Part shown: one piece after another, positions 3,073 to 56,830 of the stretch
How positions within the stretch are numbered: position 1 is the first letter of the stretch
How the letters are laid out: each line of letters starts with the position of its first letter
Source: Linyphia triangularis
Taxonomy: Eukaryota > Arthropoda > Arachnida > Araneae > Linyphiidae
DNA length: 64,000 bases
Direction of reading: 5' to 3'
Assembly: GCA_963978545.1 (NCBI GenBank)
Contig: OZ021727.1
Location: 57,672,487-57,736,486, forward strand
Position numbers and translations under genes: made by a program
The notes under the pieces: generated by a model
What the model was told of the DNA's origin: nothing
What the model saw: the letters and a program-made list of their open reading frames with translations, nothing else
Database searches by the model: none

Positions 3073-3206
<134 letters not shown>

Positions 3207-8152: not shown

Positions 8153-8261
8153 CAACTATAAGAATTACACTCCTTCCCATCAGTACATTTAACAAATTCA
8201 TCCCATTCTCTTCTTCGTCATCAATAATCTAACTCAATTTTTTTTTTCATATAGCATTATC

Positions 8262-11458: not shown

Positions 11459-11459
11459 A

Positions 11460-40409: not shown

Positions 40410-40415
40410 CACAGT
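40410..40415. repeat. Left target-site duplication (CACAGT)
   Basis: CACAGT directly precedes the element terminus AGTAGGTATAAAG. It is repeated exactly after the right terminus at 56,825. Six bases is the Polinton integrase signature. Confidence 0.85.
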
Positions 40416-40432
40416 AGTAGGTATAAAGTGGG

Positions 40433-40560
40433 GGTTCTGAGCCACCGGAGCCCCGGAGCCATCCCGGAGCGAGGAGTTCTGAGCCACCGGAGTCATATTG
40501 GAGGGTGGTTTCTGAGCCAGGGGGTTATCCCGGAGGTGTACGAGGGTTCTACACCATAGT
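40433..40560. repeat. GC-rich subterminal repeats, left arm
   Basis: Units starting GTTCTGAGCCACCGGAG lie at about 40,433 and 40,476, with decayed units at about 40,509 and 40,546. They are interspersed with CCCGGAG words, in contrast with the AT-rich remainder. They sit 17 bp from the terminus, a place where protein-binding or packaging signals are usual in related elements. That role is inferred. Confidence 0.7.
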
Positions 40561-40904
40561 GTTGTAGAGTTGAGTTGTTTCTCCTGTTGTAAAAGTTTGT
40601 TTTTAAGAAATGGCAACACTTTTTAGTTTTGCTTTATGTAACACTACGACTACTATAGTAACTTATTTAAGTTAAAATTTTGTGACGTCACAATACTAAA
40701 TTAATAAAGTTTAGTTATACTGAGTGGCAACAACTCTTACTTTTTGGCTAAGTTTAATGTAATGGTTGCGCCATCTAGTGATATGGAATTAAAGCTATTT
40801 TTCTAAGTTTATATTTGAGAATTAGTTTAAGATGGTGGTGCCATCTAGGGATGGGAAACTAAAGTATATTGTTTTACAGAGTTATTTTTCTAGATTTCTT
40901 TTAC

Positions 40905-40993
40905 TAGGTCGGGGGATCGAACCTACAATCTCGTAGTAAAATGACTTCATAGCCCAGTAACTTGTCGTTTTAGTAACTGGGCTATGAAGTCAT
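40905..40993 (-). other. Hairpin with Pol III-like A and B boxes, left arm
   Basis: An 18-bp perfect stem (40,941-40,958 with 40,976-40,993) and a 17-nt loop end five bases before the first TATA box. Read on the minus strand, TAGCCCAGTTA resembles an A box and AGGTTCGATCC (40,914-40,924) a B box about 60 nt on, as in a tRNA with a long variable arm. I could not fold it into a tRNA. Confidence 0.45.
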
Positions 40994-40997
40994 GTCC

Positions 40998-41032
40998 TTT
41001 ATAAAGTAATGTATCTATACAGACGTCTCAGT
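40998..41032 (+). promoter_or_regulatory. Core promoter, unit 1 (left arm)
   Basis: TATAAAG starts at 41,000 and the arthropod initiator TCAGT has its A at 41,030, 30 nt on. The first ATG is at 41,040, ten nt later. Confidence 0.65.
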
Positions 41033-41039
41033 TGCAAAG

Positions 41040-41195
41040 ATGGAAGTGTCGAGTGAAGTTACCGTTGGTTCTTGTATATATATTGGTGTGCTTATAATTT
41101 TTTCAATTATTTATTTTGTAACAGATAACAGTAATTTGCCTATTGACTTTACTCTTCAACTCAATGAAATCGGAAATATATCAATTTTATTGTAA
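41040..41195 (+). CDS. Small membrane protein (51 aa), first ORF of the left arm
   Basis: ATG in strong context (AAGATGG) ten nt after the predicted start site opens 51 codons to TAA. Residues of about 11-27 form one hydrophobic segment (SCIYIGVLIIFSIIYFV), with a short polar N-terminus and a 24-residue polar C-terminus. This suggests a single-pass membrane peptide. No family recognised. The integrase ATG lies 51 nt past the stop, so the two may share a transcript. An alternative is that this is a leader ORF or part of a short intron (a TAACAG acceptor lies inside). Confidence 0.5.
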   Translation: MEVSSEVTVGSCIYIGVLIIFSIIYFVTDNSNLPIDFTLQLNEIGNISILL

Positions 41196-41246
41196 AGATG
41201 TTAGGACTTAAGATACAGATAAGAATTAATAAAATTTCTTGTTGTA

Positions 41247-42290
41247 ATGAACACAACGTATCAAGACCCCGCAAGCGTAGCAAGCTTCGGCGGTATCGAC
41301 GCCTTATACCGTGCTGCGGACAGGAAGGTTCCCAAGAAAACGATACAGAAATGGCTGAAGGGGGTGGATGCGTATACTCTACACAAGCCCATTCGTCATA
41401 AATTTCCTACGAATCGTGTAATAGTTCATAATATCGATCAACAATGGCAAGCGGATTTAGTGGATATGACAAGTTTACAAAAGTTTAATGATGGTTATCG
41501 CTATCTTTTAACAATTATTGATGTACTATCGAAGCATGGGTGGATAGTACCTTTGAAACAAAAGAGGGGTGTAGACATTGTTAAGGCTTTTCAAATAATA
41601 TTGAGTCAACGAAATCCAAAATCACTTCAGACTGATCAAGGAACAGAATTTAAAAATAAGCTGTTTCAAGCCTTTTTAAAAAAGAAGGGGATTAGATTTT
41701 TCACAACTTACAATGTGTCAAAAGCATCCATCATTGAACGCTGGAATCGAAGTATTAAAACTAAAATGTGGAAGTACTTTACTGCTAAAAATACACATAA
41801 ATACATTGACGTATTACAAGATTTAGTGAAAAGTTACAATCACACTTATCATAGAAGTATCAAGCGAGCTCCCGTGGAAGTGAATGCCGAAAATGAACAG
41901 GATGTTTGGTTCACCCTCTATGGAGATATGGAGAATTTGCCTAAATCCAAATGTGTATTTAATGCAGATGACGTAGTTCGCATTTCAAAGAAAAAATTAA
42001 CCTTTGAAAAGGGGTATGAAACGAATTGGACGGAAGAATTGTTTCTTATAACAGAATGTGTCAAGAGGCAGCCTGCAGTGTATAGAGTGAATGATTTATT
42101 AGGAGAGTCTATAAAAGGGACGTTTTATGCGCAAGAGTTGCAAAAGGTTACAATGAAAGATGAATTTCCGATCGAAAAAGTTTTAAGAAAACGCATGCGT
42201 AAGAAGAAAATGGAATATTTTGTGAAATACCGAGGTTATCTCGACAAGTTTAATCAATGGATTCCCGCTTCTAACTTACTAGCCCTATAA
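41247..42290 (+). CDS. Polinton-type integrase with chromodomain (left arm)
   Basis: 347 residues. Residues 1-50 carry the SFGGIDALYRA and DAYTLHKPIRHKFP motifs that precede the catalytic core in Maverick integrases (the F54H12.3-like family). The retroviral-type rve core has D70 (WQADLVDM), D130 (LQTDQGTEF) and E164 (SIIERWNRSIK). Residues of about 305-347 form a chromodomain (IEKVL.. EYFVKYRGY ..QWIPASNLL). The upstream in-frame stop at 41,220 and family alignment support this ATG. The enzyme would insert the linear element with 6-bp staggered joining, matching the CACAGT duplication seen. The stop codon overlaps the TATA box of the next unit. Confidence 0.93.
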   Translation: MNTTYQDPASVASFGGIDALYRAADRKVPKKTIQKWLKGVDAYTLHKPIRHKFPTNRVIVHNIDQQWQADLVDMTSLQKFNDGYRYLLTIIDVLSKHGWIVPLKQKRGVDIVKAFQIILSQRNPKSLQTDQGTEFKNKLFQAFLKKKGIRFFTTYNVSKASIIERWNRSIKTKMWKYFTAKNTHKYIDVLQDLVKSYNHTYHRSIKRAPVEVNAENEQDVWFTLYGDMENLPKSKCVFNADDVVRISKKKLTFEKGYETNWTEELFLITECVKRQPAVYRVNDLLGESIKGTFYAQELQKVTMKDEFPIEKVLRKRMRKKKMEYFVKYRGYLDKFNQWIPASNLLAL

Positions 42291-42320
42291 ATATTGCTTA
42301 CACATGTTTCAAGACTCATT
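42286..42320 (+). promoter_or_regulatory. Core promoter, unit 2 (left arm)
   Basis: TATAAAT begins at 42,286, inside the integrase stop region. The initiator TCATT has its A at 42,318 (32 nt on), and ATG follows at 42,328 (ten nt on). This selects the second ATG as the penton start. Confidence 0.7.
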
Positions 42321-42327
42321 TGTCATC

Positions 42328-43071
42328 ATGAGTTTCTACATAACACTCATTTCGGACAGTTCCATGTCATATTTTCCCGAGAATAAAATTTCTCATTTTA
42401 TCACTCGTCTATCCGTTCCAATTGAATTGAAAGGAGAATGGGAAGTTGGAATGGTAGAGTTTTTATACCCCCATACTTGGTATAATGTGAATCATCAAAA
42501 TAATTTAATTGGATTCGAGACGAGTGGAAAGTTAGAGGTAGGAAGAAGATTACCTCCGGGTTGTTATGAGACGGTTCCTGATATTTTAAAGGCTATTTAT
42601 GTGAAAGAACACGATGATAAAATTGTTACAAGTTATAATCCTGTCACGAAGCGTGTTCAGATAACTGTAAAAAATAATGCGAAACTCATATTATATCAAG
42701 GACTTGCTGAAATGCTTGGATTCGAACCTATGGAAATAACTTCGTTTGACGCAAGTATAGAAACAACTGTTGTTGGTCCATTCGTAGCTGACCCCTCTGC
42801 ACATTATCGCGTATTGATGATTTATACGGATATAGTAGAACCGCAAATTGTAGGAGATGTTTTAGCACCTCTCCTTCGAGTTGTTAGAGTAAGAGGTCAA
42901 GACGGTGAGATGATTAGCGAACAATATGATAGACCACACTACTTACCTGTTAACCGGAAATTTATTGAGACTTTGGAAATCGTTATAAGGACGCACTCGG
43001 GGTGTTTAACGCCATTTGAACGTGGACGCTCGTACGTGAAGTTACACTTTCGACAGAAATCTCTCTCATAA
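42328..43071 (+). CDS. Penton-like minor capsid protein (left arm)
   Basis: 247 residues from the ATG at 42,328. An in-frame ATG at 42,304 lies upstream of the predicted transcription start and is less likely. The N-terminus (FYITLISDSSMSYFPENKIS) and the GEWEVGMVEFLYPHTWYNV block are hallmarks of the minor capsid protein shared by Polintons and adintoviruses, usually modelled as a single jelly-roll that fills capsid vertices. Its TAA overlaps the ATG of the core protein (TAATG). It is the first cistron of the capsid unit. Confidence 0.85.
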   Translation: MSFYITLISDSSMSYFPENKISHFITRLSVPIELKGEWEVGMVEFLYPHTWYNVNHQNNLIGFETSGKLEVGRRLPPGCYETVPDILKAIYVKEHDDKIVTSYNPVTKRVQITVKNNAKLILYQGLAEMLGFEPMEITSFDASIETTVVGPFVADPSAHYRVLMIYTDIVEPQIVGDVLAPLLRVVRVRGQDGEMISEQYDRPHYLPVNRKFIETLEIVIRTHSGCLTPFERGRSYVKLHFRQKSLS

Positions 43072-43493
43072 TGTATGTTCCTTACCAGTGCTGTCAAAAA
43101 TCTTTTGAAGATTATTATGTACAGCAAACAGGAGGAGGTTTGAATTATTATCAGGGAAGTTCTTATCAGAGAGGATATGGGCTAGGAGGTTTATTTAGAT
43201 CATTTTTTCGTGCTGCAGCACCGCTTCTAAAATCGGGTGCTAAAGCTATTGGGAAACAAATGTTTCACAGCGGTGTAAACCTAATGAATGATCTTTCTCA
43301 AGGTCAAGATTTTAAAATAGCCGCCAAACGAAGGCTCAAAGAAGCCGGAAATGTGTTAACAGATAAAGCCGCCACTCGAGTTAAAACTATGATTGGTAGC
43401 GGGAAAAAGCATAAAAAGCGTAAACAGAAGAAGAAGTATATCATTCCAAGTTTAACCAAGAAGAAGTGTACAGCACGAGATATTTTCTCCTAA
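43071..43493 (+). CDS. Virion core / membrane-active protein, pVI/pX-like (left arm)
   Basis: 140 residues. It has a Tyr/Gly-rich N-terminus (about 19-40), an amphipathic helix region (LFRSFFRAAAPLLKSGAKAI, residues 41-60) and a very basic C-terminus (GKKHKKRKQKKK, 111-122). This resembles the adenovirus pVI/pX-type proteins of adintoviruses, which disrupt membranes or bind packaged DNA. The match is by composition and gene order, not by a conserved domain. TAATG overlaps join it to genes on both sides. Confidence 0.65.
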   Translation: MYVPYQCCQKSFEDYYVQQTGGGLNYYQGSSYQRGYGLGGLFRSFFRAAAPLLKSGAKAIGKQMFHSGVNLMNDLSQGQDFKIAAKRRLKEAGNVLTDKAATRVKTMIGSGKKHKKRKQKKKYIIPSLTKKKCTARDIFS

Positions 43494-44800
43494 TGGCTTC
43501 CTTTATATACAAAGACTCTCCCCCTTGCGTAAAGTCGGAATTGGATTTATTTTCAATTCCCCCTACACAAACCGTTATCGAAAAAGGGCAATTTGTAGAA
43601 TTTCATCCCCTTTCAAGTGTTCGTGATGGTGGACCGATCGAGTTCACGATATCAGGGAGTGGTGAAGAATATGTAGACTTAGCTGCATCCTATCTACATG
43701 TTAAAGTGAAAGTGACAAAATCAGACGGTTCTAAACTGCCAGAAAATGAACCTGTTGCCCCCATAAACCTTTTCCTACACTCGCTATTTAGTCAAGTGGA
43801 CGTTAGTTTAAATGAAAGAAATATCTCATCTGCAAGCAACACCTATCCTTTTAGAGCCTATATAGAGACATTGTTAAATTATGGAGAAGACGCCAAGAAA
43901 AGTCTACTTACCTGTGAAGGATTCTACAAAGATACCCAACCTGATATTATAGACCCCTTAAATGCAAGTGCTGATGCCGGAATGAAGACGCGCTACAATC
44001 TTATCAAAGACAGTCGAACCGTAGACATGATTGGTCAACTTCACTGCGACATTTTCCAGCAGAATCGTCTCATGATCAACTTGGTAGATATCAAAATTAA
44101 AATGATACGCAGCAAATCGTCATTTTGCTTAATTTCAACCAAACAGGATGGTGATTATAAGATAGTTCTAGAACATGCTTCTATGTTTATAAGAAAAGTG
44201 AAGGTGAGCCCTGCTGTTGCCATCGCACATGTCAAAGCTTTAGAGAAGACGTCCTGCAAATATCCAATCGATCGTGTGATTTGCAAAACTTTTAGTATTG
44301 CCAAGGGCAGTTGGTCCTTTTTACAAGATAATGTGTTTCTTGGACTCATGCCAAAGCGCGTGATACTAACCTGTTTAGGAAATGCAGCAATGAATGGACA
44401 ATATTCAAAGAACCCGTTCCTATTTTCTCACTTTAACGCAAACTTTGTATCCATCTACGTAGACGGACAACCTGTTCCTTCTAAACCGTTAGAACTCAAT
44501 TTCGATTCTAACAACTACGTTCGCGCCTATCACAGTTTATTCTCGGGATTTAATCAAGATAAGGGAATTTACTTATCTCAAGAAGAATACACCAGAGGAC
44601 ATGTACTTTACGCATTTGATCTAAGTCCTGATCTTTGCGACGGAGAACATTTTAATCTACAACACCAGGGAAATTTACGTGTGGAAATTAAATTTTCCGA
44701 AGCTATTTCGGAGACATTATCCGTTCTCATTTACGCAGAGTTTCAAAACGTGATTGAAATATCAAAACCACGTCACGTTGTCTGTGACTTTCCGAATTAA
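43493..44800 (+). CDS. Major capsid (hexon)-like protein, F54H12.2-like family (left arm)
   Basis: 435 residues from ATG (MASFIYKDSP). The N-terminal region FVEFHPLSSVRDGGPIEFTI followed by YVDLAASYLHVKVKV is the conserved signature of the F54H12.2-like proteins encoded next to Maverick integrases. Its length, mid-operon position and beta-rich sequence fit a double jelly-roll major capsid protein. That structural assignment is family inference. The frame could be extended nine codons upstream only with a GTG start, so the ATG that overlaps the core-gene stop is preferred. TAA overlaps the protease ATG. Confidence 0.8.
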   Translation: MASFIYKDSPPCVKSELDLFSIPPTQTVIEKGQFVEFHPLSSVRDGGPIEFTISGSGEEYVDLAASYLHVKVKVTKSDGSKLPENEPVAPINLFLHSLFSQVDVSLNERNISSASNTYPFRAYIETLLNYGEDAKKSLLTCEGFYKDTQPDIIDPLNASADAGMKTRYNLIKDSRTVDMIGQLHCDIFQQNRLMINLVDIKIKMIRSKSSFCLISTKQDGDYKIVLEHASMFIRKVKVSPAVAIAHVKALEKTSCKYPIDRVICKTFSIAKGSWSFLQDNVFLGLMPKRVILTCLGNAAMNGQYSKNPFLFSHFNANFVSIYVDGQPVPSKPLELNFDSNNYVRAYHSLFSGFNQDKGIYLSQEEYTRGHVLYAFDLSPDLCDGEHFNLQHQGNLRVEIKFSEAISETLSVLIYAEFQNVIEISKPRHVVCDFPN

Positions 44801-45276
44801 TGGATACCTTTCAAATAACCAGAATTCTTTCTGGAAATGCAAAAACGAAGAATATATTCTTGGGCGTTTTCTCAAGTGATCGATTACCCTCGTCTATTCG
44901 AAACTTTCCAGCCTGTCTTATTGCCAACACTGACAAGTCTGATCAAGAAGGTAGTCATTGGGTAGCTTTCTATATAGATTCGCCTACAAAAATTTGCTTC
45001 TTTGACTCGTTCGGAAACCCGCCCTCATATTTTACTGGAAAAATTTCAAGTTATGTTAAAAATTATCAACATGTAGAGTTTAATCCCATGATACTTCAAT
45101 CGAATGCGAGTTCCGTATGTGGACAATATTGTATTTTTTATCTATATTCTAAATGTAATGGTCGTTCTCTGAACGATATCCTCTTATCTTTTGTACCCAA
45201 TCAGCTATGTAATGATATCAAAGTGCATTATTTTGTAACCAAGCACTTTAAAATTGTAGCACCATTTTATCAATAA
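44800..45276 (+). CDS. Adenain-type cysteine protease (left arm)
   Basis: 158 residues. H53 (GSHWVAFYID), D69 (FFDSFG), Q100 and C107 (QSNASSVCGQYCIFYL) give the His-Asp/Glu-Gln-Cys layout of adenovirus-type maturation proteases (the Ulp1-like C5 family). It would cleave capsid and core precursors. Last cistron of the capsid unit: the ATG overlaps the MCP stop, and AATAAA at 45,272-45,277 overlaps its own stop. Confidence 0.92.
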   Translation: MDTFQITRILSGNAKTKNIFLGVFSSDRLPSSIRNFPACLIANTDKSDQEGSHWVAFYIDSPTKICFFDSFGNPPSYFTGKISSYVKNYQHVEFNPMILQSNASSVCGQYCIFYLYSKCNGRSLNDILLSFVPNQLCNDIKVHYFVTKHFKIVAPFYQ

Positions 45277-45315
45277 AGAGTATTTAAACAGTAACACTTT
45301 GTATCGTCTCTCATT
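45272..45315 (+). promoter_or_regulatory. Unit 2 poly(A) signal abutting unit 3 promoter (left arm)
   Basis: AATAAA (45,272-45,277) ends three bases before TATTTAA (45,281). The initiator TCATT (A at 45,313, 32 nt from the TATA) precedes the ATPase ATG by seven nt. Confidence 0.6.
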
Positions 45316-45319
45316 CAAT

Positions 45320-45937
45320 ATGGAATTTCCAAAGTTGCAACACCCTTTTACTATGGTAATTGCCGGTCCAACTGGTTGTGGTAAAAGCTATTTTGTGCGG
45401 GATTTGATAAGTGAAAAGCATGGCATGTTTTCAATCGTTCTCGATAAGGTTGTTTGGTTTTACGGAATACATCAGCCTTTATATGACGAAATTGACAATG
45501 TAACATTTGTAGAAGGTCTGCCAACTACATTTAAAGAATTTTTGGGGGAGAATACACTCTTCGTAATTGATGATTTAATGTCAAATGCTAACAGTCATTT
45601 AACTGATCTTTTTACAAAAGGGAGTCATCATTTAAACCTGAGTGTTATATTCATAACACAGAATTTCTTCTATAAAGGAAAGGAAATGCGTGACATTACA
45701 TTGAACGCGCATTACTTGGTACTTTGTAAAAATAGGCGAGATTTGAGTCAAATCTCGCATCTCGGAAGGCAACTATTTCCTAGACATGTAAAATTGTTTC
45801 AAGAAGTCTTTGAAGACGCCACGAAAAACCCCTATTCATATCTTTTTATAGATTTACGGGCTGAAACTCCAGAAGAGTTGCGCCTTCGATCAAAAATTTT
45901 ACCTTATCAGACACAGCTAGTGTATCAATTTAAATAA
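45320..45937 (+). CDS. FtsK-HerA/A32-like packaging ATPase (left arm)
   Basis: 205 residues from the ATG at 45,320 (MEFPKLQHPF). The Walker A motif GPTGCGKS (residues 16-23 from this start) and Walker B motif TLFVIDDLM are followed by the SVIFITQNFF sensor-type segment. Short length and sequence fit the genome-packaging ATPase of Polintons and adintoviruses, which pumps DNA into preformed capsids. It sits directly after the protease, and has its own TATA/initiator. Confidence 0.9.
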   Translation: MEFPKLQHPFTMVIAGPTGCGKSYFVRDLISEKHGMFSIVLDKVVWFYGIHQPLYDEIDNVTFVEGLPTTFKEFLGENTLFVIDDLMSNANSHLTDLFTKGSHHLNLSVIFITQNFFYKGKEMRDITLNAHYLVLCKNRRDLSQISHLGRQLFPRHVKLFQEVFEDATKNPYSYLFIDLRAETPEELRLRSKILPYQTQLVYQFK

Positions 45938-45972
45938 TATAAAAGTGAATAACTTTGAATAAAAGTGTCATT
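45938..45972 (+). promoter_or_regulatory. Core promoter, unit 4, with unit 3 poly(A) signal inside (left arm)
   Basis: TATAAAAG starts at 45,938, the initiator TCATT has its A at 45,970 (32 nt), and the ATG is at 45,980 (ten nt). AATAAA for the upstream ATPase message (45,958-45,963) falls between TATA and initiator. Confidence 0.65.
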
Positions 45973-45979
45973 TAGCAAG

Positions 45980-46309
45980 ATGTCACTTAAGAAGGAACAA
46001 CTCAATCAATTGCGACTATTACAAATATGTCCGTTAAAGTTACGAAAAACGTTACTGAGTAAACTCAATAAGAAATGTATAAAAACCATATGCGAATGCT
46101 GCATGAACACATTGAATGGAAATGTTCCATTGACTCCACAGCAGAAGAAAGCACTCTCTAAGCATAAAAAAACTTTGCGACATTTAAGTAATCGTAAAGT
46201 GTCTTTATCGAAAAAACGTCAAGTTATTTTACAGAAAAGAGGTTTTCTTAACATACTTATTCCCGCCGCTTTGAGTGTTCTAACAACATTATTTCATGGC
46301 TCAAATTAA
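45980..46309 (+). CDS. Small conserved basic protein of unknown function (left arm)
   Basis: 109 residues from ATG (MSLKKEQLNQ). It is rich in Lys/Arg/Leu, with a Cys cluster (CIKTICECCMN, about 33-43), a NVPLTPQQKKALSKHKKTLR block and a hydrophobic C-terminus (GFLNILIPAALSVLTTLF). I recognise this pattern as a recurrent companion of Polinton capsid genes but know no function. DNA-binding or membrane-active roles are both plausible. The last 14 nt overlap the next gene. Confidence 0.7.
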   Translation: MSLKKEQLNQLRLLQICPLKLRKTLLSKLNKKCIKTICECCMNTLNGNVPLTPQQKKALSKHKKTLRHLSNRKVSLSKKRQVILQKRGFLNILIPAALSVLTTLFHGSN

Positions 46310-46964
46310 GAAATTTGCTCTTATACCAGAGGAATTGGTCACAAAACATACAGTGTCTCATAAGAGACTTAGTGAATTAGATAAAGCTATGATACAAATT
46401 TTAAATAGTGACTTACCTGATCATGAGAAATTAGTTCGTTATCAAGAGCTGCTTATGAAAAGTTTAAATTTGCAAGAATTTAACAACTCGCGTTCAACAG
46501 AGGAAAAGAAAAATGGAGAAGTAGAAGACATTGAGAAATCTGAAAGTAACAAGAATGTGGAAGAATCTGTGAAAGTGGAAGATAGTAAGAAGCATGTTCA
46601 AAAAGAAAACATTTATCAAGAACTTATATTGTCTTCAGTACCTAAGAATTTACGAAGGAAGGCGGAAAGCGTCTACTCTCTTATCAAGAACCAGTCTGAT
46701 ATCTTATCGTGGAATTCCAAAGGACAAATTTCACTACATGGAGAAAAAATACCAAACTCTAATATTGTAGACTTTTTCAATTATATGTACAATAGCAAAA
46801 GTAATGCCAGAAGTATATATGATACAGCATTACAAGATTTAAATGTTCCAAAGCAGTTTATTGGAAATAAAAATTTGTTAAAGTCACCGGTAAAAAATGT
46901 TCGAGGGAAGGTGAAACGAAATGTAAAACATGCTTTAAAGTGGGAACCTTATTCAATAAACTAG
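46296..46964 (+). CDS. Conserved Polinton-associated protein, function unknown (left arm)
   Basis: 222 residues. The N-terminus (about 1-60) is helical. Residues of about 65-105 are highly charged and low-complexity (EEKKNGEVEDIEKSE). The C-terminal half has the LSSVPKNLRRKAE..LI and GEKIPNSNIVDFFNYM blocks found in hypothetical proteins of animal Polinton-like elements, then a basic end. The start overlaps the preceding gene by 14 nt in another frame and no separate TATA is seen, so it is probably translated from the same message. AATAAA at 46,955 overlaps its end. Confidence 0.7.
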   Translation: MAQIKKFALIPEELVTKHTVSHKRLSELDKAMIQILNSDLPDHEKLVRYQELLMKSLNLQEFNNSRSTEEKKNGEVEDIEKSESNKNVEESVKVEDSKKHVQKENIYQELILSSVPKNLRRKAESVYSLIKNQSDILSWNSKGQISLHGEKIPNSNIVDFFNYMYNSKSNARSIYDTALQDLNVPKQFIGNKNLLKSPVKNVRGKVKRNVKHALKWEPYSIN

Positions 46965-47032
46965 TGTTGCTTAAAACTGTTCTATTATTGAAATCACACA
47001 GACACAAATTATTGAATGAAATACATTTTATT
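46955..47032. terminator. Convergent poly(A) signals (left arm)
   Basis: Plus-strand AATAAA (46,955-46,960) ends unit 4. Minus-strand AATAAA (47,032-47,027) ends the AlkB unit. They lie 67 bp apart, so the two messages may overlap at their 3' ends. Confidence 0.65.
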
Positions 47033-47098
47033 TATAATCTCATAAGTTTTAAAATATCTGAATAACATAGAGTTTCAATGACAATTATTTACAGCAAT

Positions 47099-48484
47099 TT
47101 AAAATTTTAAATGATCTTTCAAAGCATTCCAAGAAATAACTTTGAAGAAATCTTCATCAAATAAGTGAATAACATTTTTAGATATCAAAGTTTCAATGAT
47201 AGTATTTACATTCAATATGAGAATTGCACTGTCACCCACATACCAAAATTGATCTTCTACTGAGGCAGTTATACAGGTGTGTGATTGTTGTCCCATTGCG
47301 TTGTCAACGCAACCTTCACAACGAAATAACTTAAAAACATTAGTTTCAACTTCAAGTCGCAAAGCAGAGACATATTCATTAAATAAATCTACATTAGGAG
47401 GTACATTAACATTTGCTGCACATTTAGCAAGAATTTTAGAATTTAATAGAGTTAAAAGAGATTCTTTAATTGTTTCACACATTTCGGGTATAAGGTCTTT
47501 AATTTTAATGAGATTATTATCATCCACTTTTAAAAAACTGTCTTTAAGTTGAAAATTAAAAATTTGTTTGAAAAGTAGCTCACCTTTCTGTGATAAGATT
47601 AGGAGTTGGTTATTACACACTACGCTTGAAGTTGAATATTTCGTATTCACGAGAAAGATTTTGTTCATAAAGTCCACAAATGTGCTCATGTTCATTACAA
47701 TTTTCTGAGTACCTCCTTGGCTACTATGTTGACACATATGAATAAAAACGCGAGAGTCAAATTGATGTAGGGACACTACAAAACCAAACCCGAGGTTCCA
47801 CTCTTTAAGGCACACACTATTTTTCTTTGCTGGGGCGTATAGTCGGGTCAACCAGTCATCTTCGGGGATAGCTTCCTCAAACGATCGTTTTTGTGAAGAA
47901 GACTTGTGGAGGCCAATATCTTGAGGTTTCTTAACGAGTTTCCGGAAGGTAATGCTGATTCTAGGCTCCGTTACAGCAGGCTCAGCAGGAATTTCATGGC
48001 TCCAAAAGTTGTTAGTTGGCGGCTTCATGAGAAGAAGGGATCCACTTTTCAGCAAAACTTTATGGGACTGGAATTGAAATCGGGTAAAGTTCATGGTGCG
48101 GCTGGCCCCAAGACTGAGCGTGGGGATGATAGAGGTTGGGTCGAGACTTGTTTCATCATCCTTGTGGGCTCCAATCTTGGCAGATCCATCCGGGTAGAAA
48201 TTGAGAAGGGCATAGTTGTACTCTTGTCCAGTTTTACTTTCCACATCCTTCTTAATGGCTAGTAGCGTGGGAGTCCATGGCTCGGCAGAGACACTCGTTC
48301 CGGAAAAGGCATAGCTAAGACCGTAATCACCAAATGCAAGGACCTTCCTCTTAGGAGTGTAGCTTCGTCCATTGAAACAGAGTTTCAAATCATGATACTT
48401 GAACTCCAACAATTCAAGAAGCAATTGTTGAGAATAATCAGAATCGAAAAAATTTTCAATGTTTTCAATACTTAAGTTAGCCAT
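47099..48484 (-). CDS. AlkB-domain Fe(II)/2-oxoglutarate dioxygenase with novel C-terminus (left arm)
   Basis: 461 residues. Residues of about 35-185 are an AlkB (ALKBH2/3-like) domain: NFYPDGSAKIGAHKDDE gives the iron ligands H107 and D109, H163 (WSHEIP) is the distal ligand, and R175/R181 (EPRISITFRKL) bind 2-oxoglutarate. The LSLGASRTM strand is also typical. Residues of about 195-461 are unrecognised, helix-rich and Cys-containing, with no polymerase motifs visible. Such enzymes remove alkyl or methyl groups from nucleic acids; here it may protect or demethylate element DNA (inference). Transcribed away from the palindrome centre, towards the other genes. It stands where polymerase B would be expected. 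Confidence 0.88.
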   Translation of the reverse strand: MANLSIENIENFFDSDYSQQLLLELLEFKYHDLKLCFNGRSYTPKRKVLAFGDYGLSYAFSGTSVSAEPWTPTLLAIKKDVESKTGQEYNYALLNFYPDGSAKIGAHKDDETSLDPTSIIPTLSLGASRTMNFTRFQFQSHKVLLKSGSLLLMKPPTNNFWSHEIPAEPAVTEPRISITFRKLVKKPQDIGLHKSSSQKRSFEEAIPEDDWLTRLYAPAKKNSVCLKEWNLGFGFVVSLHQFDSRVFIHMCQHSSQGGTQKIVMNMSTFVDFMNKIFLVNTKYSTSSVVCNNQLLILSQKGELLFKQIFNFQLKDSFLKVDDNNLIKIKDLIPEMCETIKESLLTLLNSKILAKCAANVNVPPNVDLFNEYVSALRLEVETNVFKLFRCEGCVDNAMGQQSHTCITASVEDQFWYVGDSAILILNVNTIIETLISKNVIHLFDEDFFKVISWNALKDHLKF

Positions 48485-48755: not shown

Positions 48756-50141
48756 ATGGCTAACTTAAGTATTGAAAACATTGAAAATTTTTTCGATTCT
48801 GATTATTCTCAACAATTGCTTCTTGAATTGTTGGAGTTCAAGTATCATGATTTGAAACTCTGTTTCAATGGACGAAGCTACACTCCTAAGAGGAAGGTCC
48901 TTGCATTTGGTGATTACGGTCTTAGCTATGCCTTTTCCGGAACGAGTGTCTCTGCCGAGCCATGGACTCCCACGCTACTAGCCATTAAGAAGGATGTGGA
49001 AAGTAAAACTGGACAAGAGTACAACTATGCCCTTCTCAATTTCTACCCGGATGGATCTGCCAAGATTGGAGCCCACAAGGATGATGAAACAAGTCTCGAC
49101 CCAACCTCTATCATCCCCACGCTCAGTCTTGGGGCCAGCCGCACCATGAACTTTACCCGATTTCAATTCCAGTCCCATAAAGTTTTGCTGAAAAGTGGAT
49201 CCCTTCTTCTCATGAAGCCGCCAACTAACAACTTTTGGAGCCATGAAATTCCTGCTGAGCCTGCTGTAACGGAGCCTAGAATCAGCATTACCTTCCGGAA
49301 ACTCGTTAAGAAACCTCAAGATATTGGCCTCCACAAGTCTTCTTCACAAAAACGATCGTTTGAGGAAGCTATCCCCGAAGATGACTGGTTGACCCGACTA
49401 TACGCCCCAGCAAAGAAAAATAGTGTGTGCCTTAAAGAGTGGAACCTCGGGTTTGGTTTTGTAGTGTCCCTACATCAATTTGACTCTCGCGTTTTTATTC
49501 ATATGTGTCAACATAGTAGCCAAGGAGGTACTCAGAAAATTGTAATGAACATGAGCACATTTGTGGACTTTATGAACAAAATCTTTCTCGTGAATACGAA
49601 ATATTCAACTTCAAGCGTAGTGTGTAATAACCAACTCCTAATCTTATCACAGAAAGGTGAGCTACTTTTCAAACAAATTTTTAATTTTCAACTTAAAGAC
49701 AGTTTTTTAAAAGTGGATGATAATAATCTCATTAAAATTAAAGACCTTATACCCGAAATGTGTGAAACAATTAAAGAATCTCTTTTAACTCTATTAAATT
49801 CTAAAATTCTTGCTAAATGTGCAGCAAATGTTAATGTACCTCCTAATGTAGATTTATTTAATGAATATGTCTCTGCTTTGCGACTTGAAGTTGAAACTAA
49901 TGTTTTTAAGTTATTTCGTTGTGAAGGTTGCGTTGACAACGCAATGGGACAACAATCACACACCTGTATAACTGCCTCAGTAGAAGATCAATTTTGGTAT
50001 GTGGGTGACAGTGCAATTCTCATATTGAATGTAAATACTATCATTGAAACTTTGATATCTAAAAATGTTATTCACTTATTTGATGAAGATTTCTTCAAAG
50101 TTATTTCTTGGAATGCTTTGAAAGATCATTTAAAATTTTAA
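48756..50141 (+). CDS. AlkB-domain dioxygenase (right arm)
   Basis: Identical in all 461 residues to the left-arm copy, diverging from it across the centre. H107, D109, H163, R175 and R181 are intact. Its initiator and TATA lie 50 and 79 nt upstream. Confidence 0.88.
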   Translation: MANLSIENIENFFDSDYSQQLLLELLEFKYHDLKLCFNGRSYTPKRKVLAFGDYGLSYAFSGTSVSAEPWTPTLLAIKKDVESKTGQEYNYALLNFYPDGSAKIGAHKDDETSLDPTSIIPTLSLGASRTMNFTRFQFQSHKVLLKSGSLLLMKPPTNNFWSHEIPAEPAVTEPRISITFRKLVKKPQDIGLHKSSSQKRSFEEAIPEDDWLTRLYAPAKKNSVCLKEWNLGFGFVVSLHQFDSRVFIHMCQHSSQGGTQKIVMNMSTFVDFMNKIFLVNTKYSTSSVVCNNQLLILSQKGELLFKQIFNFQLKDSFLKVDDNNLIKIKDLIPEMCETIKESLLTLLNSKILAKCAANVNVPPNVDLFNEYVSALRLEVETNVFKLFRCEGCVDNAMGQQSHTCITASVEDQFWYVGDSAILILNVNTIIETLISKNVIHLFDEDFFKVISWNALKDHLKF

Positions 50142-50207
50142 ATTGCTGTAAATAATTGTCATTGAAACTCTATGTTATTCAGATATTTTAAAACTTATGA
50201 GATTATA

Positions 50208-50285
50208 AATAAAATGTATTTCATTCAATAATTTGTGTCTGTGTGATTTCAATAATAGAACAGTTTTAAGCAACACTAGTTTATT
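50208..50285. terminator. Convergent poly(A) signals (right arm)
   Basis: Mirror of 46,955-47,032. AATAAA on plus at 50,208-50,213 serves the AlkB gene; AATAAA on minus at 50,285-50,280 serves the opposing unit. Confidence 0.65.
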
Positions 50286-50944
50286 GAATAAGGTTCCCAC
50301 TTTAAAGCATGTTTTACATTTCGTTTCACCTTCCCTCGAACATTTTTTACCGGTGACTTTAACAAATTTTTATTTCCAATAAACTGCTTTGGAACATTTA
50401 AATCTTGTAATGCTGTATCATATATACTTCTGGCATTACTTTTGCTATTGTACATATAATTGAAAAAGTCTACAATATTAGAGTTTGGTATTTTTTCTCC
50501 ATGTAGTGAAATTTGTCCTTTGGAATTCCACGATAAGATATCAGACTGGTTCTTGATAAGAGAGTAGACGCTTTCCGCCTTCCTTCGTAAATTCTTAGGT
50601 ACTGAAGACAATATAAGTTCTTGATAAATGTTTTCTTTTTGAACATGCTTCTTACTATCTTCCACTTTCACAGATTCTTCCACATTCTTGTTACTTTCAG
50701 ATTTCTCAATGTCTTCTACTTCTCCATTTTTCTTTTCCTCTGTTGAACGCGAGTTGTTAAATTCTTGCAAATTTAAACTTTTCATAAGCAGCTCTTGATA
50801 ACGAACTAATTTCTCATGATCAGGTAAGTCACTATTTAAAATTTGTATCATAGCTTTATCTAATTCACTAAGTCTCTTATGAGACACTGTATGTTTTGTG
50901 ACCAATTCCTCTGGTATAAGAGCAAATTTCTTAATTTGAGCCAT
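50276..50944 (-). CDS. Conserved Polinton-associated protein, function unknown (right arm)
   Basis: Same 222 residues as the left-arm copy, including the charged middle and the LSSVPKNLRRKAE block. It overlaps the upstream small gene by 14 nt. Confidence 0.7.
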   Translation of the reverse strand: MAQIKKFALIPEELVTKHTVSHKRLSELDKAMIQILNSDLPDHEKLVRYQELLMKSLNLQEFNNSRSTEEKKNGEVEDIEKSESNKNVEESVKVEDSKKHVQKENIYQELILSSVPKNLRRKAESVYSLIKNQSDILSWNSKGQISLHGEKIPNSNIVDFFNYMYNSKSNARSIYDTALQDLNVPKQFIGNKNLLKSPVKNVRGKVKRNVKHALKWEPYSIN

Positions 50945-51260
50945 GAAATAATGTTGTTAGAACACTCAAAGCGGCGGGAATAAGTATGTTAAGAAAACCT
51001 CTTTTCTGTAAAATAACTTGACGTTTTTTCGATAAAGACACTTTACGATTACTTAAATGTCGCAAAGTTTTTTTATGCTTAGAGAGTGCTTTCTTCTGCT
51101 GTGGAGTCAATGGAACATTTCCATTCAATGTGTTCATGCAGCATTCGCATATGGTTTTTATACATTTCTTATTGAGTTTACTCAGTAACGTTTTTCGTAA
51201 CTTTAACGGACATATTTGTAATAGTCGCAATTGATTGAGTTGTTCCTTCTTAAGTGACAT
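50931..51260 (-). CDS. Small conserved basic protein (right arm)
   Basis: Identical to the 109-residue left-arm protein with the CECC cluster and hydrophobic tail. TATA at 51,302 and initiator A at 51,270 on the minus strand keep the same spacing. Confidence 0.7.
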   Translation of the reverse strand: MSLKKEQLNQLRLLQICPLKLRKTLLSKLNKKCIKTICECCMNTLNGNVPLTPQQKKALSKHKKTLRHLSNRKVSLSKKRQVILQKRGFLNILIPAALSVLTTLFHGSN

Positions 51261-51302
51261 CTTGCTAAATGACACTTTTATTCAAAGTTATTCACTTTTA
51301 TA

Positions 51303-51920
51303 TTATTTAAATTGATACACTAGCTGTGTCTGATAAGGTAAAATTTTTGATCGAAGGCGCAACTCTTCTGGAGTTTCAGCCCGTAAATCTATAAAAAGAT
51401 ATGAATAGGGGTTTTTCGTGGCGTCTTCAAAGACTTCTTGAAACAATTTTACATGTCTAGGAAATAGTTGCCTTCCGAGATGCGAGATTTGACTCAAATC
51501 TCGCCTATTTTTACAAAGTACCAAGTAATGCGCGTTCAATGTAATGTCACGCATTTCCTTTCCTTTATAGAAGAAATTCTGTGTTATGAATATAACACTC
51601 AGGTTTAAATGATGACTCCCTTTTGTAAAAAGATCAGTTAAATGACTGTTAGCATTTGACATTAAATCATCAATTACGAAGAGTGTATTCTCCCCCAAAA
51701 ATTCTTTAAATGTAGTTGGCAGACCTTCTACAAATGTTACATTGTCAATTTCGTCATATAAAGGCTGATGTATTCCGTAAAACCAAACAACCTTATCGAG
51801 AACGATTGAAAACATGCCATGCTTTTCACTTATCAAATCCCGCACAAAATAGCTTTTACCACAACCAGTTGGACCGGCAATTACCATAGTAAAAGGGTGT
51901 TGCAACTTTGGAAATTCCAT
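51303..51920 (-). CDS. Packaging ATPase (right arm)
   Basis: Identical 205-residue copy with Walker A GPTGCGKS and Walker B FVIDDLM intact. Confidence 0.9.
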   Translation of the reverse strand: MEFPKLQHPFTMVIAGPTGCGKSYFVRDLISEKHGMFSIVLDKVVWFYGIHQPLYDEIDNVTFVEGLPTTFKEFLGENTLFVIDDLMSNANSHLTDLFTKGSHHLNLSVIFITQNFFYKGKEMRDITLNAHYLVLCKNRRDLSQISHLGRQLFPRHVKLFQEVFEDATKNPYSYLFIDLRAETPEELRLRSKILPYQTQLVYQFK

Positions 51921-51963
51921 ATTGAATGAGAGACGATACAAAGTGTTACTGTTTAAATACTCT

Positions 51964-52440
51964 TTATTGATAAAATGGTGCTACAATTTTAAAGTGCTTG
52001 GTTACAAAATAATGCACTTTGATATCATTACATAGCTGATTGGGTACAAAAGATAAGAGGATATCGTTCAGAGAACGACCATTACATTTAGAATATAGAT
52101 AAAAAATACAATATTGTCCACATACGGAACTCGCATTCGATTGAAGTATCATGGGATTAAACTCTACATGTTGATAATTTTTAACATAACTTGAAATTTT
52201 TCCAGTAAAATATGAGGGCGGGTTTCCGAACGAGTCAAAGAAGCAAATTTTTGTAGGCGAATCTATATAGAAAGCTACCCAATGACTACCTTCTTGATCA
52301 GACTTGTCAGTGTTGGCAATAAGACAGGCTGGAAAGTTTCGAATAGACGAGGGTAATCGATCACTTGAGAAAACGCCCAAGAATATATTCTTCGTTTTTG
52401 CATTTCCAGAAAGAATTCTGGTTATTTGAAAGGTATCCAT
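51964..52440 (-). CDS. Adenain-type cysteine protease (right arm)
   Basis: Identical 158-residue copy. Catalytic H53, D69, Q100 and C107 are retained. The start overlaps the MCP stop (TAATG on the minus strand). Confidence 0.92.
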   Translation of the reverse strand: MDTFQITRILSGNAKTKNIFLGVFSSDRLPSSIRNFPACLIANTDKSDQEGSHWVAFYIDSPTKICFFDSFGNPPSYFTGKISSYVKNYQHVEFNPMILQSNASSVCGQYCIFYLYSKCNGRSLNDILLSFVPNQLCNDIKVHYFVTKHFKIVAPFYQ

Positions 52441-53747
52441 TAATTCGGAAAGTCACAGACAACGTGACGTGGTTTTGATATTTCAATCACGTTTTGAAAC
52501 TCTGCGTAAATGAGAACGGATAATGTCTCCGAAATAGCTTCGGAAAATTTAATTTCCACACGTAAATTTCCCTGGTGTTGTAGATTAAAATGTTCTCCGT
52601 CGCAAAGATCAGGACTTAGATCAAATGCGTAAAGTACATGTCCTCTGGTGTATTCTTCTTGAGATAAGTAAATTCCCTTATCTTGATTAAATCCCGAGAA
52701 TAAACTGTGATAGGCGCGAACGTAGTTGTTAGAATCGAAATTGAGTTCTAACGGTTTAGAAGGAACAGGTTGTCCGTCTACGTAGATGGATACAAAGTTT
52801 GCGTTAAAGTGAGAAAATAGGAACGGGTTCTTTGAATATTGTCCATTCATTGCTGCATTTCCTAAACAGGTTAGTATCACGCGCTTTGGCATGAGTCCAA
52901 GAAACACATTATCTTGTAAAAAGGACCAACTGCCCTTGGCAATACTAAAAGTTTTGCAAATCACACGATCGATTGGATATTTGCAGGACGTCTTCTCTAA
53001 AGCTTTGACATGTGCGATGGCAACAGCAGGGCTCACCTTCACTTTTCTTATAAACATAGAAGCATGTTCTAGAACTATCTTATAATCACCATCCTGTTTG
53101 GTTGAAATTAAGCAAAATGACGATTTGCTGCGTATCATTTTAATTTTGATATCTACCAAGTTGATCATGAGACGATTCTGCTGGAAAATGTCGCAGTGAA
53201 GTTGACCAATCATGTCTACGGTTCGACTGTCTTTGATAAGATTGTAGCGCGTCTTCATTCCGGCATCAGCACTTGCATTTAAGGGGTCTATAATATCAGG
53301 TTGGGTATCTTTGTAGAATCCTTCACAGGTAAGTAGACTTTTCTTGGCGTCTTCTCCATAATTTAACAATGTCTCTATATAGGCTCTAAAAGGATAGGTG
53401 TTGCTTGCAGATGAGATATTTCTTTCATTTAAACTAACGTCCACTTGACTAAATAGCGAGTGTAGGAAAAGGTTTATGGGGGCAACAGGTTCATTTTCTG
53501 GCAGTTTAGAACCGTCTGATTTTGTCACTTTCACTTTAACATGTAGATAGGATGCAGCTAAGTCTACATATTCTTCACCACTCCCTGATATCGTGAACTC
53601 GATCGGTCCACCATCACGAACACTTGAAAGGGGATGAAATTCTACAAATTGCCCTTTTTCGATAACGGTTTGTGTAGGGGGAATTGAAAATAAATCCAAT
53701 TCCGACTTTACGCAAGGGGGAGAGTCTTTGTATATAAAGGAAGCCAT
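52440..53747 (-). CDS. Major capsid (hexon)-like protein (right arm)
   Basis: Identical 435-residue copy, linked by TAATG overlaps to the core and protease genes. Confidence 0.8.
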   Translation of the reverse strand: MASFIYKDSPPCVKSELDLFSIPPTQTVIEKGQFVEFHPLSSVRDGGPIEFTISGSGEEYVDLAASYLHVKVKVTKSDGSKLPENEPVAPINLFLHSLFSQVDVSLNERNISSASNTYPFRAYIETLLNYGEDAKKSLLTCEGFYKDTQPDIIDPLNASADAGMKTRYNLIKDSRTVDMIGQLHCDIFQQNRLMINLVDIKIKMIRSKSSFCLISTKQDGDYKIVLEHASMFIRKVKVSPAVAIAHVKALEKTSCKYPIDRVICKTFSIAKGSWSFLQDNVFLGLMPKRVILTCLGNAAMNGQYSKNPFLFSHFNANFVSIYVDGQPVPSKPLELNFDSNNYVRAYHSLFSGFNQDKGIYLSQEEYTRGHVLYAFDLSPDLCDGEHFNLQHQGNLRVEIKFSEAISETLSVLIYAEFQNVIEISKPRHVVCDFPN

Positions 53748-54169
53748 TAGGAGAAAATATCTCGTGCTGTACACTTCTTCTTGGTTAAACTTGGAATGAT
53801 ATACTTCTTCTTCTGTTTACGCTTTTTATGCTTTTTCCCGCTACCAATCATAGTTTTAACTCGAGTGGCGGCTTTATCTGTTAACACATTTCCGGCTTCT
53901 TTGAGCCTTCGTTTGGCGGCTATTTTAAAATCTTGACCTTGAGAAAGATCATTCATTAGGTTTACACCGCTGTGAAACATTTGTTTCCCAATAGCTTTAG
54001 CACCCGATTTTAGAAGCGGTGCTGCAGCACGAAAAAATGATCTAAATAAACCTCCTAGCCCATATCCTCTCTGATAAGAACTTCCCTGATAATAATTCAA
54101 ACCTCCTCCTGTTTGCTGTACATAATAATCTTCAAAAGATTTTTGACAGCACTGGTAAGGAACATACAT
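53747..54169 (-). CDS. Virion core / membrane-active protein (right arm)
   Basis: Identical 140-residue copy with the amphipathic helix and Lys-rich end. Confidence 0.65.
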   Translation of the reverse strand: MYVPYQCCQKSFEDYYVQQTGGGLNYYQGSSYQRGYGLGGLFRSFFRAAAPLLKSGAKAIGKQMFHSGVNLMNDLSQGQDFKIAAKRRLKEAGNVLTDKAATRVKTMIGSGKKHKKRKQKKKYIIPSLTKKKCTARDIFS

Positions 54170-54912
54170 TATGAGAGAGATTTCTGTCGAAAGTGTAACT
54201 TCACGTACGAGCGTCCACGTTCAAATGGCGTTAAACACCCCGAGTGCGTCCTTATAACGATTTCCAAAGTCTCAATAAATTTCCGGTTAACAGGTAAGTA
54301 GTGTGGTCTATCATATTGTTCGCTAATCATCTCACCGTCTTGACCTCTTACTCTAACAACTCGAAGGAGAGGTGCTAAAACATCTCCTACAATTTGCGGT
54401 TCTACTATATCCGTATAAATCATCAATACGCGATAATGTGCAGAGGGGTCAGCTACGAATGGACCAACAACAGTTGTTTCTATACTTGCGTCAAACGAAG
54501 TTATTTCCATAGGTTCGAATCCAAGCATTTCAGCAAGTCCTTGATATAATATGAGTTTCGCATTATTTTTTACAGTTATCTGAACACGCTTCGTGACAGG
54601 ATTATAACTTGTAACAATTTTATCATCGTGTTCTTTCACATAAATAGCCTTTAAAATATCAGGAACCGTCTCATAACAACCCGGAGGTAATCTTCTTCCT
54701 ACCTCTAACTTTCCACTCGTCTCGAATCCAATTAAATTATTTTGATGATTCACATTATACCAAGTATGGGGGTATAAAAACTCTACCATTCCAACTTCCC
54801 ATTCTCCTTTCAATTCAATTGGAACGGATAGACGAGTGATAAAATGAGAAATTTTATTCTCGGGAAAATATGACATGGAACTGTCCGAAATGAGTGTTAT
54901 GTAGAAACTCAT
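54169..54912 (-). CDS. Penton-like minor capsid protein (right arm)
   Basis: Identical 247-residue copy. The start was chosen as in the left arm, ten nt after the initiator (A at 54,922). Confidence 0.85.
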   Translation of the reverse strand: MSFYITLISDSSMSYFPENKISHFITRLSVPIELKGEWEVGMVEFLYPHTWYNVNHQNNLIGFETSGKLEVGRRLPPGCYETVPDILKAIYVKEHDDKIVTSYNPVTKRVQITVKNNAKLILYQGLAEMLGFEPMEITSFDASIETTVVGPFVADPSAHYRVLMIYTDIVEPQIVGDVLAPLLRVVRVRGQDGEMISEQYDRPHYLPVNRKFIETLEIVIRTHSGCLTPFERGRSYVKLHFRQKSLS

Positions 54913-54949
54913 GATGACAAATGAGTCTTGAAACATGTGTAAGCAATAT

Positions 54950-55993
54950 TTATAGGGCTAGTAAGTTAGAAGCGGGAATCCATTGATTAAACTTGTCGAG
55001 ATAACCTCGGTATTTCACAAAATATTCCATTTTCTTCTTACGCATGCGTTTTCTTAAAACTTTTTCGATCGGAAATTCATCTTTCATTGTAACCTTTTGC
55101 AACTCTTGCGCATAAAACGTCCCTTTTATAGACTCTCCTAATAAATCATTCACTCTATACACTGCAGGCTGCCTCTTGACACATTCTGTTATAAGAAACA
55201 ATTCTTCCGTCCAATTCGTTTCATACCCCTTTTCAAAGGTTAATTTTTTCTTTGAAATGCGAACTACGTCATCTGCATTAAATACACATTTGGATTTAGG
55301 CAAATTCTCCATATCTCCATAGAGGGTGAACCAAACATCCTGTTCATTTTCGGCATTCACTTCCACGGGAGCTCGCTTGATACTTCTATGATAAGTGTGA
55401 TTGTAACTTTTCACTAAATCTTGTAATACGTCAATGTATTTATGTGTATTTTTAGCAGTAAAGTACTTCCACATTTTAGTTTTAATACTTCGATTCCAGC
55501 GTTCAATGATGGATGCTTTTGACACATTGTAAGTTGTGAAAAATCTAATCCCCTTCTTTTTTAAAAAGGCTTGAAACAGCTTATTTTTAAATTCTGTTCC
55601 TTGATCAGTCTGAAGTGATTTTGGATTTCGTTGACTCAATATTATTTGAAAAGCCTTAACAATGTCTACACCCCTCTTTTGTTTCAAAGGTACTATCCAC
55701 CCATGCTTCGATAGTACATCAATAATTGTTAAAAGATAGCGATAACCATCATTAAACTTTTGTAAACTTGTCATATCCACTAAATCCGCTTGCCATTGTT
55801 GATCGATATTATGAACTATTACACGATTCGTAGGAAATTTATGACGAATGGGCTTGTGTAGAGTATACGCATCCACCCCCTTCAGCCATTTCTGTATCGT
55901 TTTCTTGGGAACCTTCCTGTCCGCAGCACGGTATAAGGCGTCGATACCGCCGAAGCTTGCTACGCTTGCGGGGTCTTGATACGTTGTGTTCAT
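54950..55993 (-). CDS. Polinton-type integrase with chromodomain (right arm)
   Basis: Identical 347-residue copy with D70, D130, E164 and the chromodomain intact. The element therefore carries two complete integrase genes. Confidence 0.93.
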   Translation of the reverse strand: MNTTYQDPASVASFGGIDALYRAADRKVPKKTIQKWLKGVDAYTLHKPIRHKFPTNRVIVHNIDQQWQADLVDMTSLQKFNDGYRYLLTIIDVLSKHGWIVPLKQKRGVDIVKAFQIILSQRNPKSLQTDQGTEFKNKLFQAFLKKKGIRFFTTYNVSKASIIERWNRSIKTKMWKYFTAKNTHKYIDVLQDLVKSYNHTYHRSIKRAPVEVNAENEQDVWFTLYGDMENLPKSKCVFNADDVVRISKKKLTFEKGYETNWTEELFLITECVKRQPAVYRVNDLLGESIKGTFYAQELQKVTMKDEFPIEKVLRKRMRKKKMEYFVKYRGYLDKFNQWIPASNLLAL

Positions 55994-56044
55994 TACAACA
56001 AGAAATTTTATTAATTCTTATCTGTATCTTAAGTCCTAACATCT

Positions 56045-56200
56045 TTACAATAAAATTGATATATTTCCGATTTCATTGAGTTGAAGAGTAAAGTCAATAG
56101 GCAAATTACTGTTATCTGTTACAAAATAAATAATTGAAAAAATTATAAGCACACCAATATATATACAAGAACCAACGGTAACTTCACTCGACACTTCCAT
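56045..56200 (-). CDS. Small membrane protein, 51 aa (right arm)
   Basis: Mirror of 41,040-41,195, with the same hydrophobic segment and the same ten-nt leader after TCAGT (A at 56,210). TATAAAG is at 56,240-56,234. Confidence 0.5.
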   Translation of the reverse strand: MEVSSEVTVGSCIYIGVLIIFSIIYFVTDNSNLPIDFTLQLNEIGNISILL

Positions 56201-56246
56201 CTTTGCAACTGAGACGTCTGTATAGATACATTACTTTATAAAGGAC

Positions 56247-56335
56247 ATGACTTCATAGCCCAGTTACTAAAACGACAAGTTACTGGGCTATGAAGTCATT
56301 TTACTACGAGATTGTAGGTTCGATCCCCCGACCTA
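56247..56335 (+). other. Hairpin with Pol III-like A and B boxes (right arm)
   Basis: Mirror of 40,905-40,993. TAGCCCAGTTA at 56,256 and AGGTTCGATCC at 56,316 on the plus strand, pointing to the right terminus. No T-run terminator follows closely. Confidence 0.45.
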
Positions 56336-56679
56336 GTAAAAGAAATCTAGAAAAATAACTCTGTAAAACAATATACTTTAGTTTCCCATCCCTAGATGGC
56401 ACCACCATCTTAAACTAATTCTCAAATATAAACTTAGAAAAATAGCTTTAATTCCATATCACTAGATGGCGCAACCATTACATTAAACTTAGCCAAAAAG
56501 TAAGAGTTGTTGCCACTCAGTATAACTAAACTTTATTAATTTAGTATTGTGACGTCACAAAATTTTAACTTAAATAAGTTACTATAGTAGTCGTAGTGTT
56601 ACATAAAGCAAAACTAAAAAGTGTTGCCATTTCTTAAAAACAAACTTTTACAACAGGAGAAACAACTCAACTCTACAAC

Positions 56680-56807
56680 ACTATGGTGTAGAACCCTCGT
56701 ACACCTCCGGGATAACCCCCTGGCTCAGAAACCACCCTCCAATATGACTCCGGTGGCTCAGAACTCCTCGCTCCGGGATGGCTCCGGGGCTCCGGTGGCT
56801 CAGAACC
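56680..56807. repeat. GC-rich subterminal repeats, right arm
   Basis: Mirror of 40,433-40,560, with CTCCGGTGGCTCAGAAC units close to the right terminus. Confidence 0.7.
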
Positions 56808-56824
56808 CCCACTTTATACCTACT

Positions 56825-56830
56825 CACAGT
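56825..56830. repeat. Right target-site duplication (CACAGT)
   Basis: Exact repeat of 40,410-40,415, immediately after ATACCTACT. The flanks outside the two copies are unrelated, so the palindrome ends exactly at the insertion boundaries. Confidence 0.85.

Follow-up and report, generated by a model that had tools for sequence, protein, structure and literature searches.

A 64,000-nt stretch of contig OZ021727.1 from the spider Linyphia triangularis (assembly GCA_963978545.1; hereafter, the window) contains a palindromic insertion of a Polinton/Maverick-type mobile element. We consider it probable, at about 84%, that this element arose from an ordinary Polinton/Maverick of ~16 kb as a snap-back (copy-back) deletion derivative. 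One part of the parent is present as an inverted duplication around a unique loop, with a short inverted repeat at the turn, and the element most likely arose as a side product when a linear genome was replicated.

The two arms of the palindrome measure 8,176 nt each and are 100% complementary, with 57 nt in between. At the palindrome register, 8,220 of 8,320 positions pair (98.8%, with ~116 flanking bases per side counted in), against 26–30% at ten neighbouring registers, and a one-base shift reduces pairing to 30%. The element termini are AGTAGGTATAAAG...CTTTATACCTACT (AGTAGG...CCTACT), and CACAGT is found at both edges of the insertion as a 6-bp target site duplication (TSD). The 3-kb flanks show only short weak matches to one another. 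Neither arm shows damage to its open reading frames (ORFs) or to the AlkB TATA box. The window palindrome is confirmed as genuine; register and arm comparison bear out the preliminary description of this DNA, which had claimed exact inverted arms around a 57-bp centre, as well as AG..CT termini and a 6-bp TSD.

An integrase search of the window's own assembly (1.349 Gb) yielded 117 scored hits out of 3,863 candidates. Thirteen had 99–100% identity, comprising the two window arms, a converging pair in C14 and nine single copies; all nine single copies (at least 99% integrase identity) and the C14 pair were compared with the window. The arm is present up to position 8176 in 9/9 single copies, none of them mirrored. 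It is ungapped in C9 and C12, has small gaps in C4a, C4b, C15 and C10 and inserts in C8 and C13, and has lost its first 208 bp in C2. Directly after the arm, all nine carry the window's 57-bp centre in reverse complement (with one mismatch in C13), and beyond these 57 nt each of the nine continues into a right half unlike the window. In 8/9, the right half closes with the first 378 bp repeated in inverted orientation (96.6–97.9% identity), forming terminal inverted repeats (TIRs); in C10, this repeat was not found within the stretch covered. Five copies without an arm insert are 16,039, 16,050, 16,044, 15,819 and 15,811 bp long, and two with an insert reach 18,613 and 17,963 bp. A perfect 6-bp TSD borders all seven single copies with both ends found, as well as the mirrored C14 copy and the window element, while C2, with its damaged left end, shows no TSD at the place tested. 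With an rve integrase carrying a chromodomain, a predicted double-jelly-roll capsid protein, a protease, an ATPase, TIRs and a 6-bp TSD, these full-length relatives are ordinary ~16-kb Polintons/Mavericks. Together with the gene families, termini and TSD of the window element, they agree with its earlier classification as Polinton-type.

The TIRs carry six fixed left/right differences, at 347–358 from the tip (in the seven of nine single copies used), and the right ends of the window and C14 elements are left-type at 6/6 of these diagnostic positions. The outer 346 bp have no fixed left/right difference in the seven full-length copies; mutual copying between the tips may maintain this likeness. 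As for the inserts, the C8 65.32 Mb copy (L025/L026) holds ~2.8 kb, perhaps a nested mobile element, where 6 bp of the host element are duplicated at arm position 8056–8061, and the C13 34.50 Mb copy (L035) holds ~0.54 kb with a 4-bp duplication at arm position 4135–4138.

The comparison with the parent locates the turn precisely. In the parent, as measured in L021, the 57 nt are flanked by a perfect inverted repeat of 9 bp (ACGATATCA and TGATATCGT), and the parental match runs 9 bp past the 57 nt, to the same extent in 9/9 single copies and C14. The window tracks the parent through right terminus, arm, loop and repeat end, after which its own arm reappears in reverse complement. Read from the sequence, this junction is best explained as the footprint of a 3' end that paired back at a short inverted repeat and was extended, with its own strand as template, as far as the terminus. 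In chromosomal fold-back inverted duplications, a short inverted sequence adjoining a single-copy spacer is described as the signature in passages of PMC3907307.

We propose that, during copying of linear element DNA, a strand was extended beyond arm position 8176, through the following 57 nt, and ended in TGATATCGT. This end would have folded onto ACGATATCA, just ahead of the loop, and the folded strand would have copied itself out to the terminus. The product would be linear, with the same left end on both sides, a 57-nt loop at the centre and two integrase/capsid halves, lacking the polymerase half. Because two proper ends are present, the integrase could accept the identical termini as if they belonged to a normal genome, producing an insertion with a 6-bp TSD. 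The fold-back would have taken place outside the chromosome, ahead of integration, with the polymerase presumably supplied by intact relatives, and the DNA may be packaged. The head-to-head dimer earlier suggested as the integration substrate survives in part: a mirrored molecule is probable, but it would be half a genome copied back at the 9-bp inverted repeat, not two complete genomes.

The arms of the window element differ at 0/8,176 positions, compared with 11/8,176 for the nearest single copy, so both arms probably derive from one template. The left-type right ends of the window and C14 elements favour fold-back before integration, which we consider likely, while still allowing the other order. 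At an assumed 3e-9 substitutions/site/year, the identity of the arms gives an upper bound on their age of ~61,000 years, unless conversion homogenises them.

The right half lost from the window contains a 1,028-aa ORF, whose sequence was taken from the copy at C8 65.3 Mb (L026:2049-5132, minus strand). It is matched by tblastn in 9/9 single copies (in pieces in C10 and C15), has no tblastn match in the window and is cut to residues 755–1028 in the mirrored C14 copy. DANNLYG, KLLNNAVFGK and DTDS occur in it in this order, which we take to be that of polymerase-B motifs A, B and C. Residues 303–361 form an endonuclease VII-like stretch (PHROGs 3.5e-4; below the Pfam cut-off), and a C2H2 zinc-finger ORF is also present in the right half. 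The window copy is a defective derivative with its own polymerase gene missing, at odds with the full gene set first credited to each arm, and its further copying would therefore need the help of intact relatives.

Mirrored insertions are also found elsewhere in this genome. Among the 117 hits, 11 pairs of neighbouring integrases lie less than 100 kb apart (five converging, five direct and one diverging). All five converging pairs are closer than 20 kb, whereas random placement would give ~0.05, and all five were inspected, those in C1 and at C6 26.88 Mb at the central 5 kb alone. The C14 insertion spans 13,138 bp with TSD TACAGC; its arm 1–3552 is joined to reversed parental sequence from ~9583, and its short arms are identical. 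At C8 35.7 Mb, the arms are 97.7–99.6% alike around 100 nt, with a span of at least 14,163 bp; at C1 82.95 Mb, they are 98.4% alike around 129 nt, and at C6 26.88 Mb, 100% alike around 288 nt. The latter three loci belong to a related subfamily, and breakpoints vary among the mirrored loci. Direct-orientation hits 15.1–19.6 kb apart at C10 42.2 Mb, C14 28.6 Mb and C14 77.4 Mb are possible tandem elements, and the diverging pair, at C3 67.24 Mb, is 16.6 kb apart.

Several observations weigh against the snap-back origin. The arm contains 12 9-bp inverted repeats with loops of 20–100 nt, so that such repeats are not rare. The breakpoint leaves every gene intact, which a random turn would do about 1 time in 20: between integrase and centre, coding sequence occupies 95% of the arm. 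The position of the turn in the remaining 5% speaks mildly against a random site. By eye, the C14 junction lacks inverted microhomology and its loop would be ~6 kb, so not all mirrored copies need share one origin. Finally, searches of Pfam (E up to 10), NCBIfam, PHROGs and PDB matched the 1,028-aa ORF to no polymerase, which is why we call it only "polymerase-like", a label based on the motifs.

Among the alternatives, the one that survives best, although we judge it unlikely, is conversion in situ, in which a normal copy already in the chromosome suffered a break in the right half, turned back at the 9-bp repeat, duplicated its left arm and was rejoined to the old right end inside the TIR. 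For human inverted duplications, passages of PMC3907307 document fold-back in chromosomes, with a single-copy spacer and short inverted sequences; the TIR would provide homology for rejoining, and flanks and TSD would stay. However, the left-type right ends would require rejoining within the outer 346 bp in both the window and C14, and two template switches would be needed per event. It is much less probable that two molecules contributed one end each to a concerted integration and had their inner ends fused by end joining. A normal TSD would be expected here too, and the C14 junction without microhomology is in keeping with it, but in the window both molecules would have had to be cut within 57 bp of one point and fused exactly at the 9-bp inverted repeat. 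Moreover, the arms are identical in both the window and C14, though 8/9 single copies differ mutually by at least three sites in 3,550; sister molecules could, admittedly, be identical.

Arms that are 100% identical are also what a foldback read would give, but an assembly or library artefact, already argued against in the preliminary description, is very unlikely given the unlike flanks, the matching TSD and the diverged arms at C8 35.7 Mb (97.7–99.6%) and C1 (98.4%), which a foldback read would not be expected to produce. A lineage living as a mirrored, polymerase-less genome, as had also been suggested, is barely credible: both arms do retain intact ORFs and AlkB TATA box, but of the nearly identical single copies sampled in this genome, 9/9 are non-mirrored and have the polymerase-like sequence, and the breakpoints of the mirrored copies differ. 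The sizes of 38 public capsid-hit contigs, from which a natural mirrored unit might be argued, were non-discriminating (P 0.18 for none >8.2 kb; P 0.015 for none >6.8 kb). A structured hairpin telomere at the centre was also rejected, as the 57 nt alone fold no better than shuffled sequences (z 0.09).

Table 1. Features of the mirrored element, in window coordinates. Mirror positions refer to the second copy of each gene.
Feature	Position	Strand	Mirror	Basis
Left TSD CACAGT	40410..40415			sequence read
Left arm, 8,176 bp; copied arm on the fold-back model	40416..48591	+		parent comparison
Left terminal repeat	40416..40793	+		378 bp, the TIR match length of full-length copies
Integrase, rve + chromodomain	41247..42290	+	54950-55993 -	PF00665 2.9e-12; PF00385 2.7e-09
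247-aa ORF, ATG at 42328; putative minor-capsid position	42328..43071	+	54169-54912 -	gene order alone
140-aa ORF; putative PW position	43071..43493	+	53747-54169 -	gene order alone
Predicted double-jelly-roll major capsid protein, 435 aa	43493..44800	+	52440-53747 -	F54H12.2 family
Adenain-like cysteine protease	44800..45276	+	51964-52440 -	PF00770 2.6e-07, above cut-off
A32/IVa2-like packaging ATPase, 205 aa	45320..45937	+	51303-51920 -	PF04665 1.3e-05 and PF02456 3.5e-05, both above cut-offs
109-aa ORF without assignment	45980..46309	+	50931-51260 -	
222-aa ORF without assignment	46296..46964	+	50276-50944 -	
AlkB (ALKBH2-like) dioxygenase + ~280-aa C-terminal part	47099..48484	-	48756-50141 +	
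9-bp inverted-repeat half site ACGATATCA, adjoining the loop	48583..48591	+		
57-bp centre, putative fold-back loop	48592..48648	-		9/9 single copies and C14: after arm position 8176, right-arm orientation
9-bp inverted-repeat half site TGATATCGT, opposite side of the loop	48649..48657	+		
Right arm, 8,176 bp; continuous with the loop, like the parent	48649..56824	-		parent comparison
Right terminal repeat, left-type at 6/6 diagnostic positions	56447..56824	-		
Right TSD CACAGT	56825..56830			sequence read

The genes of the arms are listed in Table 1. Judged by its fold, the capsid protein (F54H12.2 family of public records) is of the double-jelly-roll kind, and its best match in a viral library is a Cotesia bracovirus protein. 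The 247-aa ORF had no family match in the family searches. In the whole AlkB protein, for which only 12 homologues were found, the C-terminal ~280 aa (window 47102-47941, minus strand) have a fold prediction of fair confidence and no family match. Scans of IMG/VR with the capsid (as a single sequence and as two alignments), the integrase (as a single sequence and as one alignment), the ATPase and the 255-aa ORF product found no relative, nor did a scan of GTDB contigs with the capsid alignment.

Other features were observed in the window. An 18-bp perfect inverted repeat (window 40898-40997; arm 526-543/561-578) adjoins a stretch that by eye resembles a tRNA T-arm; ARAGORN reported no tRNA there, and no tRNA or known RNA family was found in the window. 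Outside the element, 257-nt inverted arms, 95% alike and 299 nt apart, form a foldback-like element at 10649-11461, and a ~1.9-kb stretch at 57121-59055 has several nested imperfect inverted arms. A BEL/Pao-type retroelement (Peptidase_A17 1.9e-48) occupies 59600-63998 on the minus strand in several reading-frame pieces and is cut by the window end.

Several known systems resemble the window element in part. Some DNA molecules of adenovirus incomplete particles are inverted duplications, though unlike the window element they are non-integrated. The integrase, jelly-roll capsid, protease and ATPase correspond to the first module of the order published for animal Polintons/Mavericks, as given in parts of PMC8097293, and the AGT-type termini and 6-bp TSD are likewise similar; unlike these elements, the window copy consists of the left half twice and has no polymerase half. 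The full-length copies described here (~16.0 kb, with 378-bp TIR matches) compare with 16,862 +/- 1,678 bp and TIRs of 46–1,447 bp in vertebrate Polintons/Mavericks, according to the same parts of PMC8097293. Snap-back genomes of adeno-associated virus (AAV), termed 5'-SBG and 3'-SBG, are described in a portion of PMC8235507 as self-complementary subgenomes with one genome moiety and inverted terminal repeat that replicate with helper functions. They may serve as a working parallel, although they come from AAV particles and the window case is an unrelated dsDNA element inserted in a chromosome. The inverted copies, single-copy spacer and short inverted sequence at its edge are shared with the chromosomal fold-back inverted duplications in passages of PMC3907307, where spacers are 766–70,466 bp, whereas the window has a mobile element with a 57-nt loop, termini and TSD. 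An integrated mirrored Polinton was not found in titles, opening abstracts and passages of the searched literature, which covered few subscription journals.

The acceptance of such a molecule suggests that the integrase requires two proper ends rather than a proper genome. The mirrored elements measure 13.1 and 16.4 kb in the two cases where size could be determined, and at least 14.2, more than 12.8 and more than 16.7 kb in the other three. It is conceivable, though on balance doubtful, that snap-back genomes are a regular Polinton by-product in this animal, near genome length, packaged and transmitted with helpers as a heritable defective-interfering load. If so, a mirrored load in the germ line would double the capsid and integrase genes and could yield double-stranded RNA. 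Maverick replication is mostly inferred because viral particles had not been observed at the time of PMC8097293, according to parts of that paper. Integrated snap-back junctions would offer a sequence-level record of strand folding during the copying of linear elements, and counting them across existing assemblies could allow tests of how these elements replicate, of selection on their genome size and of the dynamics of defective genomes.

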